DNA of 64,000 nt from Desulfovibrio sp. JY (GTDB lineage Bacteria > Desulfobacterota > Desulfovibrionia > Desulfovibrionales > Desulfovibrionaceae): assembly GCA_021730285.1 (NCBI GenBank), contig CP082962.1, forward strand, positions 1,116,001 through 1,180,000. The letters run 5' to 3'. Under the pieces are notes generated by a model that did not search any database, was not told the origin of the DNA, and saw only the letters and a list, made by a program, of their open reading frames with translations. The position numbers and the translations under genes are program-made. This document shows positions 28,133-35,312 of this stretch, piece after piece (position 1 is the stretch's first letter; the number at the start of each line of letters is the position of its first letter).

Positions 28133-28142
28133 GGAGAGGATA

Positions 28143-28180
28143 CCGGGGGGAACCCTTTCTGTAGAAAGGGTTCCCCCCGG
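28143..28180. repeat. Hairpin A half of a composite element split by the IS
   Basis: CCGGGGGGAACCCTTTC arms with a 4-base loop, 11 bases after the methyltransferase stop. The other half (hairpin B) is now at 29718-29756, separated by the insertion sequence. Confidence 0.8.
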
Positions 28181-28276
28181 ACCCCCCTCCCAAATACCAT
28201 GTTGGCCTCGACCCTCAAACTGGCTGATAGTGCCAGTAAATGTGCTCGTAGACACAAACGAGGCGAGGAGACCAAC

Positions 28277-29359
28277 ATGGCAGGACAAGCGTTATCCCAA
28301 CTTCAAGCGTTTGTGGAGGCTTCACAAGGTCGATCTTTTTTTGTCGGATTGGATGTCCATAAAAATAGTTATTTTGTTGCGTTACGTCGGTTTGATGGAG
28401 TCGTCCACACCTTGGTGATGTCGGCGAGCCCGCAGGCTCTGATCGACAAATTGGCCGCGGTGGGCGTCACCGTGGCCATGGCGGCCAGTGAATCCGGGCC
28501 GACCGGATTCACCCTGTCCAGAGCGCTCACAAAGGCAGGGATTCCCAATCTCGTGGCGGCTCCCAGTCGGATTCCCCGCCCCGTGGTCTGGGGCGCAAAA
28601 ACAGACCGGCTCGATTGCGTCAAACTGGCCGATTACGCCGCCAAGGGGATGCTGCGTCCCATCGCCGTGCCGACCGAGGAGCAAGAAGCCCAGAGGAGCC
28701 TGGAGCGCCGACGACACGATCTGGCCGACGACCTGCGTCGTGTGAAACTGCGCATCCATTCCCATCTGCTTTTTTTGGGCCTTACCGAACCACCCAATCT
28801 GAAATACTGGAGCAAGGTCGCTGTAGCATCCCTGCTTAAACTGCCCATGCATCAGGCTGCCCGGTATACGCTGGAAAGTTTTGTGCGGGAGATGCATGCC
28901 ATCACCAGCGAATTGTCCCTCGTTGAACAGCAACTTGAGACAATTTGCCGCCAGGGAGAGCATGACAAAGTCATCAAGTGCCTGCGCACCGTGCCCGGTG
29001 TGGGGCCGCTCATCGCCGCGACCTTCCGTCTGGAGTTGTTTCAGCCGGAACGTTTCAGCCGGGCCGAAGAGGTGACAAGCTATCTGGGACTTGCCCCCAT
29101 GGTGCGCCAGAGCGGCGAGAGCAAGGGCCGGGCCAGGTTACGGCCCGTGGGGCAGACCAAACTGCGAAGTCTTTTAGTGGAGGCGGCCTGGAAATGGCGC
29201 GCACACGATCCGAAGGCTCAGGCCTGGTATCACAAGTTGCTGGGGAAAAGCGGCCTGGCCCAAAAGGCCATCACAGCCTTAGCTCGAAAACTGGCCATCA
29301 TTTTGTGGCGGCTGAGCCTGGAGAAACGAGCGTACCGATTTGAGGCGGTTATGGCGTGA
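28277..29359 (+). CDS. IS110-family DEDD recombinase (copy 1)
   Basis: 360 aa. N-terminal RuvC-like domain (DEDD_Tnp_IS110) with acidic residues Asp26 (GLDVHK), Glu72 (ASESGP), Asp110 and Asp113 (KTDRLD). A coiled-coil linker follows, then the Transposase_20 domain (TVPGVGPLIAATF ... TSYLGLAP) with the candidate catalytic Ser278 in RQSGES. AGGAG lies seven bases before the chosen ATG; the open frame runs 26 codons further upstream to the IS end. Identical in sequence to the copy at 35319. The enzyme acts with a bridge RNA in this family. Confidence 0.95.
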   Translation: MAGQALSQLQAFVEASQGRSFFVGLDVHKNSYFVALRRFDGVVHTLVMSASPQALIDKLAAVGVTVAMAASESGPTGFTLSRALTKAGIPNLVAAPSRIPRPVVWGAKTDRLDCVKLADYAAKGMLRPIAVPTEEQEAQRSLERRRHDLADDLRRVKLRIHSHLLFLGLTEPPNLKYWSKVAVASLLKLPMHQAARYTLESFVREMHAITSELSLVEQQLETICRQGEHDKVIKCLRTVPGVGPLIAATFRLELFQPERFSRAEEVTSYLGLAPMVRQSGESKGRARLRPVGQTKLRSLLVEAAWKWRAHDPKAQAWYHKLLGKSGLAQKAITALARKLAIILWRLSLEKRAYRFEAVMA

Positions 29360-29365
29360 AACGGC

Positions 29366-29608
29366 GGCGGGCGAGGATCACGCCGGCTCTGGGAAGCCCC
29401 GTGCTCCTCGCCCGCCAAGAGGGTATTGCAGCGCCAACAAGGACCTGTGGCAACGAGTAGGGAAGACTGAAAGCCTAACAGCCAACAATTTTTCGGATTG
29501 GTCGCGGAAAAGTCTGGCCGCATGGCGGCGTTTCTCAAATGGCGAAAATCCGAAAACTACCGAATCGGTACTTGGCGCTTCGGGCGCGAATAGGAAACGG
29601 GCGGTTAG
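29366..29608 (+). ncRNA. Candidate bridge RNA of IS copy 1
   Basis: Noncoding stretch downstream of the recombinase. Three hairpins by eye: a 12-bp perfect stem (29366-29377 with 29405-29416); a target loop with stem TTTTCGGATT (29490-29499) and AATCCGAAAA (29547-29556), inner stem GCCGC/GCGGC; and a donor loop with CTACCG (29557-29562) and CGGTTAG. In the target internal loop AAAAGTCT (29508-29515) is complementary to AGACTTTT on the right of the insertion site, and TTTCTCAAA (29531-29539) resembles the left side CTTTCCAAA. In the donor loop ATAGGAAA (29590-29597) equals the IS right end plus core, and GGTA (29567-29570) pairs with left-end TACC. Confidence 0.65.
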
Positions 29609-29717
29609 ACTGCGTCAGCCGGCTTGACTTTGGGCCACATAGGAAAGACTTTTAATAGTTATGTGATGTTGTTCGGACGGTAGCTAAAAAGGTAAAAGAT
29701 TTAGGAAGGGGAGAGCG

Positions 29718-29756
29718 CGAGAGGGGAGAACCCTTTTCAAAGGGTTTCCCCTCTCG
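29718..29756. repeat. Hairpin B half of the IS-split composite element
   Basis: CGAGAGGGGAGAACCCTTTT arms (one or two mismatches), 37 bases before the menA start. Pairs logically with hairpin A at 28143-28180. Confidence 0.75.
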
Positions 29757-29792
29757 CACTTTCTTCGCTTCTTAACTCTTAGGGATCTTACA

Positions 29793-31877: not shown

Positions 31878-32037
31878 CCGGGGGGAAACTTTTCTGAAGA
31901 AAAGTTTCCCCCCGGACCCCCTTTCCAAAGACTTTTATAATAACAGAATGTTATCGATATCCATTTGTATAGATATAAGATTTAGGAAGGGGAGAGCGCG
32001 AGAGGGGAGAACCCTTTTTAAAGGGTTTCCCCTCTCG
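31878..32037. repeat. Dispersed composite palindromic element, uninterrupted
   Basis: Hairpin A 31878-31915 (13 bases after a stop), AT-rich spacer, hairpin B 31999-32037. The sequence CCCCCTTTCCAAAGACTTTT at 31916-31935 is the intact form of the IS insertion site, so this is the best empty-site reference in the window. Confidence 0.85.
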
Positions 32038-32063
32038 CACCCTCTTCTCGTAAAGTTTGTCTG

Positions 32064-35069: not shown

Positions 35070-35312
35070 CTAACCGCCCGTTTCCTATTCGCGCCCGAAG
35101 CGCCAAGTACCGATTCGGTAGTTTTCGGATTTTCGCCATTTGAGAAACGCCGCCATGCGGCCAGACTTTTCCGCGACCAATCCGAAAAATTGTTGGCTGT
35201 TAGGCTTTCAGTCTTCCCTACTCGTTGCCACAGGTCCTTGTTGGCGCTGCAATACCCTCTTGGCGGGCGAGGAGCACGGGGCTTCCCAGAGCCGGCGTGA
35301 TCCTCGCCCGCC
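35070..35312 (-). ncRNA. Candidate bridge RNA of IS copy 2
   Basis: Same structure and guides as copy 1, read on the minus strand: target-loop stems and the AAAAGTCT guide map to 35163-35170, the donor guide ATAGGAAA to 35081-35088. The identity of both noncoding regions agrees with both copies having the same target. Confidence 0.65.

Follow-up and report, generated by a model that had tools for sequence, protein, structure and literature searches.

The insertion sequence and its target repeat

The window, a stretch of 64,000 nucleotides of the Desulfovibrio sp. JY genome, contains on its forward strand an IS110-family insertion sequence of 1,449 bp (positions 28195 to 29643) with the left end TACCATG and the right end CACATAGG. 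Its ends were fixed by comparison of the 13 copies of the element in the host genome (4.69 Mb, one contig), which have a common start and stop and differing flanks. The original prediction had placed an AAA core at both insertion junctions, and it was found there, on the left at 28192–28194 and on the right at 29644–29646; uninterrupted sites have a single AAA, which in insertions is present on both sides. Across the 37 distinct insertions of all element types described below, AAA stands on the left in 36 and on the right in 31. The subterminal inverted repeat (ATGTTGGCC / ATG-TGGCC), read by eye, is short, with 8 bp interrupted by a one-base bulge; IS1111-type elements have 7–17 bp.

The transposase gene (28277..29359, forward strand) encodes a product of 360 residues from ATG 28277, which matched PF01548, PF02371 and, at 1.3e-61, the NCBIfam family NF033542, ‘IS110 family RNA-guided transposase’. 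An alternative longer frame starts at ATG 28199, inside the left end. Residues D26, E72, D110, D113 and S279 aligned with D11, E60, D102, D105 and S241 of IS621, which we take to be its catalytic positions, the letters themselves being confirmed in the alignment, and the same residues would presumably carry out catalysis here. The protein combines a DEDD RuvC-like domain with a PF02371 domain holding the conserved serine, as in the IS110 family sensu lato, and its solved relatives, as found by sequence search, are the IS621 and ISCro4 transposases. Downstream of the stop codon lies a noncoding region of 284 nt (29360..29643, forward strand), compared with 82 nt upstream of ATG 28277.

Ten of the 13 copies are at least 99.4% identical to each other, most of them at different sites, and the other three are 90–94% identical. 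All 13 are inserted at one identical point, with small variations, of a dispersed palindromic repeat with the consensus ...CCCCCTTTCC-AAA on the left and AAA-GACTTTTAA... on the right; at the locus under study its two parts occupy 28137..28194 and 29644..29780 of the forward strand. Around single-repeat matches, 27 stretches were compared with the consensus: 19 contain an uninterrupted site with one AAA at no more than four edits, five match poorly with five edits (L037, L041, L048, L055, L059), and in three (L042, L046, L054) no match was found. The pattern YYYYCAAAGACTTT, counted by its motif alone, occurs intact 85 times in the genome, and the backwards control 0 times. The window contains the element a second time (L006; 35035..36483, reverse strand, IS ends derived from the coordinates; bridge RNA at 35076–35187), with guides identical to those of the first copy; the left flank of L006, CCTTTCAAA, has a mismatch to the left guide. 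An uninterrupted target repeat (CTTTCCAAAGACTTTTAT) is located between the two insertions, at 31878–32047. The near flanks of L006 recur at L008, which would fit a duplication of the repeat unit.

Parts and fold of the putative downstream RNA

The RNA had been predicted to extend from 29366 to 29608. This range does lie within the noncoding region, but the core is tighter: the covariance model R1, which comprises target loop and donor part, matched 29491..29602 of the forward strand with 96.1 bits (E 6.1e-23), a score to be read with the window RNA being itself one of the 13 rows of the model. The four loop segments that had been proposed are all present at the predicted positions. The target loop is closed by a stem with its 5′ arm at 29502..29505 and its 3′ arm at 29542–29545 (columns 22–25/66–69 of alignment A1), two of whose four pairs show double changes. 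Within the loop, the right target guide AAAAGTCT (29508..29515) pairs with the top strand AGACTTTT to the right of the core, and the left target guide TTTCTCAAA (29531..29539) forms the 3′ guide. In the donor part, the hairpin TACCG-AAT-CGGTA (29558..29570) holds GGTA at 29567–29570, the complement of the left-end TACC, and the donor guide ATAGGAAA, ATAGG followed by AAA (29590..29597), is identical to the right end plus core, as had been claimed.

Covariance modelling of homologous RNAs, suggested in the original prediction as a check, showed that the stems covary. RNAalifold applied to the 13 RNA types yielded 19 pairs, which form two helices enclosing the target loop and, in the donor part, two hairpins; it recovered the counted helices unaided. 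The 16 counted core pairs are paired in all 207 of 207 cells of the 13-type alignment; the three RNAalifold pairs outside this set have five broken cells in total, and the fifth pair of the inner hairpin (43–48) was omitted, being absent from most types. Double changes affected 6 pairs, compared with 3.5 in shuffles (a count reached by 5 of the 500), and 23 cells, compared with 6.0 (0 of 500). Stem covariation amounted to 0.341 against 0.116 in shuffled alignments (0 of 500 as high), and reached at most 0.179 when slid. The folding energy is unremarkable, only slightly below that of shuffled sequences (z −1.55 and −1.85, that is 1.5 to 1.9 s.d.).

Scanning of the window with Rfam 15 at gathering scores returned one tRNA and no bridge RNA, so that R1 covers a clade not reported there. 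In the host genome R1 found all 13 element copies and one weak stray match (G000:1058616, E 0.2, L198), which has no IS ends and was rejected as chance. Matches at E ≤ 0.01 were obtained in 27 of the 288 genomes of the host family, the own genome included.

The donor guide equals the element's own right end in all 13 model types, although the types use three different sequences for this purpose (ATAGG, ATAAG and AGAAG before AAA); in one held-out element (L182) it is one base off the right end. A segment matching the right donor end, a defining part of bridge RNAs and seekRNAs, is thus present. On the left-end side, GGTA and TACC are complementary but hardly vary, so that covariation cannot test their pairing, and GGTA by itself, with 4 nt, is too short to carry weight. 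The GGTA hairpin is predicted in the longer fold and by RNAalifold, while the shorter fold pairs the stretch otherwise, and it lacks covariation support because its four counted pairs are invariant in the 13 types.

Near the right end, the -35-like hexamer TTGACT (29624..29629, forward strand) and the left-end TACCAT would form a putative promoter with a 17-bp spacer across the junction of a circular form, in which one AAA probably lies between the joined ends. Of the 37 distinct insertions, all 37 have TTGAC at one fixed spacing from their right end and 34 begin with TACCAT at the left end, counts that are biased upward because the ends were sought with loose patterns containing those letters. 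The putative -35/-10 pair resembles the promoters reported at the circle junctions of ISEc11 and ISEc21 (PMC11187229, in part).

Guides and flanking sequences

Relatives of the element were collected from several genome sets. Protein matches at E ≤ 1e-60 occurred in 13 of the 288 host-family genomes, the own genome included, and outside the own genome these matches were 42–57% identical; the relatives compared below span 40–57%. No new transposase relative was found at E ≤ 1e-70 in 297 genomes of the order; 395 genomes of the phylum added one relative genome (G462), and a genome-contig search confirmed no relative among 27 pattern matches. An alphaproteobacterial plasmid of Tritonibacter scottomollicae (NZ_CP136707.1, L199) carries an element that is 46% identical and gives an R1 score of 41.7 bits. 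Both ends were available in 56 of 62 loci, representing 37 distinct insertions, while L013, L065, L072, L073, L078 and L122 were left out for lack of a complete pair of ends.

The relatives carry other guides and are mostly inserted in correspondingly different sites. Scoring was performed on the 37 distinct insertions, one lacking a left flank and one a right flank, with 12 scorable types per guide and guides read by hand from the alignment. Cognate left guides scored 4.83 of 7 compared with 2.82 after permutation, and cognate right guides 7.10 of 8 compared with 5.68; in both cases 0 of 20,000 permutations were as high, figures that are not strict probabilities, since the element types share ancestry and the permutations overstate their independence. 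The cognate guide ranked first in 9 of the 12 types on the left and in 8 of 12 on the right. G123 is a misfit, its right guide ranking 8th of 12 and its left guide 3rd, and some single G254 sites score no better on the left than with non-cognate guides (L076, 3.0 vs 3.0). The register of the right guide shifts by 1–2 nt between types.

The same segments emerged when every aligned RNA position was compared blindly, in both pairing senses, with the 15 nearest bases of each flank. The left-flank peak lies at 29532 (z 4.53, where 1,000 permutations reached at most 2.44) and the right-flank peak at 29508 (z 2.88), the latter just exceeding the permutation maximum of 2.74. The other two combinations gave z 1.50 and 2.27, of which 2.27 exceeds the 95% level of 2.01 and involves gapped columns.

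The right guides were also scored in held-out elements, which were neither rows of the model nor part of the 12-type scoring and whose guides were extracted from the model alignment by an automatic procedure. This set comprised 20 sites from 32 loci with 12 distinct right guides, after exclusion of 12 loci (seven without a right end, four with truncated loops, and L171, whose guide was already used). Held-out right guides scored 6.85 of 8 compared with 5.72 after permutation (0 of 20,000 as high), with L167, L169, L175 and L182 hardly or not above non-cognates. The original prediction had named unchanged loops at unrelated sequences as evidence against it. Such a pattern was not seen for the multi-copy elements overall, the badly fitting single insertions being L071 and the four held-out loci just named.

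Within the host genome, the guides also vary together with the choice of target. The claim that the left guide resembles the left flank holds in a modified form: the sequence quoted for the flank, CTTTCCAAA, belongs instead to the uninterrupted copy of the repeat (position 31921 of the window), from which the misquotation probably arose, while the true flank CCTCCCAAA (28186–28194) shares 6 of 9 identities with TTTCTCAAA and forms 9 of 9 pairs when U-G wobble is included. Young copies have TTCTC before the core in the left guide and prefer those variants of the repeat whose third base to the left of the core is C. Two copies have altered left guides (L012, ATTTCC; L013, TTTTTC), and their flanks pair with these over the five core-adjacent bases; L013 also departs from the other copies in its right guide, AAGAGTCT, and together with it in its right flank, AGACTCT. 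Full pairing, wobble allowed, was observed at 5 of 9 distinct young sites compared with 8 of the 85 intact sites (one-sided Fisher p 0.002, in a post hoc test devised once the flanks were known, with L006 and L008 counted once), and at 4 of 7 when pattern-fitting insertions alone were considered (p 0.005). Four of the nine young sites (L006/8, L007, L009, L010) and the older copy L011 have a C-A mismatch to the left guide, and pairing therefore need not be perfect. The proposal that the guides covary with their targets was thus borne out across the 37 insertions, in the blind scan, in the held-out elements and in the choice of sites within one genome. The 13 insertions of the host genome, its 85 intact motifs and its three variants of the left guide, together with relatives carrying other guides, represent a natural, self-contained test of bridge-RNA targeting.

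Since guides covary with flanks and right ends, and stems covary, among copies and relatives, the evidence goes beyond chance. For each of the two target strands next to the core the RNA contains a pairing segment, as expected of a bridge RNA or seekRNA. From these comparisons we consider it very probable that the region encodes such an RNA, belonging to an IS110-family element that is active or was so recently and whose layout is IS1111-like. The region would be transcribed, and the recombinase would bind the product, an RNA whose fold comprises a target loop and a donor part. Of the two guides in the target loop, the 5′ one would pair to the right of the AAA core, with the top strand, and the 3′ one, which ends in AAA, to the left of the core, with the bottom strand. 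The donor part would bring GGTA opposite the left-end TACC and ATAGGAAA opposite the right end plus core. The element would exit as a circle whose joined ends rebuild the promoter TTGACT-17 bp-TACCAT, and the circle would enter the palindromic repeat read by the guides, the AAA core alone then being present on both sides.

A true bridge RNA could also be the relic of a lineage that is no longer mobile, an explanation we regard as improbable though the best of the alternatives. At some relatives' loci (L065, L072, L073, L078) one end or a portion of the gene is indeed missing, partly at contig ends, and in G243 (L063) R replaces the aligned conserved serine, so that this element is possibly inactive. 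Against a relic speak the near-identity of ten of the 13 copies at mostly different sites, and the window copy itself, which retains an open frame and all five aligned DEDD/S residues.

Relation to known elements and to terminator-like sites

In published descriptions, IS1111-type elements usually have their noncoding region downstream with the top-strand match first, and IS110-type elements upstream with the guide order reversed, with exceptions in location (PMC11187229). The present noncoding region lies downstream of tnp, like those giving rise to the seekRNAs of the IS1111-type elements ISEc11, ISPa11 and ISKpn4; as in IS1111-type elements, the top-strand match (29508–29515) is 5′ of the bottom-strand match (29531–29539), target sequence flanks both sides, and the GL-P----SG motif is present in the transposase as GLAPMVRQSG (PMC11187229, in part). 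The palindromic repeat recalls the REP target of ISPa11 in the same source. Unlike the IS1111-type proteins of 330–350 residues described there, the transposase has 360, and it is only 25% identical to those of IS5075/IS4321. The location of the RNA had been called IS1111-like; from these comparisons the description suits its downstream location and guide order, while an IS1111 label for the transposase is not established.

With IS621 and the IS110 group, the element shares target- and donor-binding segments, a core within the guides and a DEDD+S recombinase (PMC11208160, in part). It differs from the IS110 group, in which according to the same excerpt the bridge RNA is mostly upstream and the bottom-strand guide comes first, by its downstream RNA and the reverse order, and its transposase is 22% identical to that of IS621. 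Its donor bases, again unlike those of the IS110 group, lie in and beside two hairpins, much as a multiloop is reported to contain them in many IS1111 orthologues (PMC11208160, in part). In a transposase tree of 20 rows, with few references, long branches and a midpoint root for drawing only, the protein grouped at 96/92 with ISEc45/ISSso6 (plasmid copies L200, L201), apart from IS5075/IS4321 and IS621. ISEc45 and ISSso6 are the nearest named relatives in this tree, at about 28–30% identity; they were not matched by R1 at E ≤ 1, and the same applied to IS5075 and IS4321. A plasmid search with IS5075 gave, among the matches listed, only copies of at least 90% identity, of no use for the tree.

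ISPpu9, ISPpu10, ISPa11 and ISPsy8 target REP sequences and likewise insert specifically into dispersed palindromic repeats, although in other hosts and other repeats; the part of PMC1525189 used here names no guide RNA for them. Very probably, the element is a well-documented further example of the IS110/IS1111 bridge RNA/seekRNA mechanism described in 2024 rather than a new kind of system.

A group of relatives around G254 was found at a different kind of site. This set comprises elements with the ATAAG-type end that resemble G254, some of them from one tree branch with it (G250, G207, G169 and G205) and others added for their similar RNA (G246, G196, G212, G238, G242, G149, G216). At 25 of its 31 sites an inverted repeat of at least 6 bp starts within 10 bases of the core, compared with 1.3 expected, and a maximum of 5, in base shuffles; the loci from G254 itself are L068, L076, L081, L084, L087, L089, L113, L117, L118 and L121. 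Right guides of this group read the hairpin edge (AAAGCCCC and variants), and judging from their letters the sites resemble intrinsic terminators into whose A/T tract the elements inserted.

The hairpins at these sites, like the insertion of all 13 host copies in a hairpin-bearing repeat, could be taken to mean that the transposase reads the folded repeat or its DNA directly, with the likeness of loops and flanks due to chance or to captured flank DNA. We consider this very unlikely, because the guides shift with the targets both across types and inside one genome, a hairpin alone does not account for the preference of young copies for C in the third place left of the core, and both guides keep one layout relative to the conserved stems. 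Even less probable is a noncoding RNA that regulates transposase expression instead of guiding insertion, for although two small RNAs with a regulatory role are reported for ISPpu9, which resides in REP sequences (PMC8450116, in part), a regulatory function would not lead the loops to follow the external flanks and the right end. An RNA that guides insertion may nevertheless have a second, regulatory role.

For these guide-bearing elements as a whole, a broader picture is conceivable, to which we give slightly less than even credence. They might constitute a separate IS110-family lineage in which the bridge RNA lies downstream in IS1111-like fashion but the transposase falls outside the IS1111 references, one group being guide-programmed to the edge of terminator A-tracts and others to palindromic repeats. 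Such landing sites would be harmless and always present, and the guides would drift with the repeat variants of their own genome. The elements suggest that guides evolve towards safe landing sites, for example repeats and terminators. Searches by title, for terminator-related IS110/IS1111 elements or IS110 elements of Desulfovibrio and for the newer IS110 bridge-RNA literature, returned nothing on point, from which we do not claim absence in print.

In G220, a different palindromic repeat is targeted, in two variants, GGTTACTTTCTTTTG...CAAAAGAAAGTAACC-AAA and a GGTTCTTTTTT form, with a hairpin touching the core (L062, L075, L094; L080, L083, L090). One further locus of this genome (L086) is inserted elsewhere than in its palindromic repeat.
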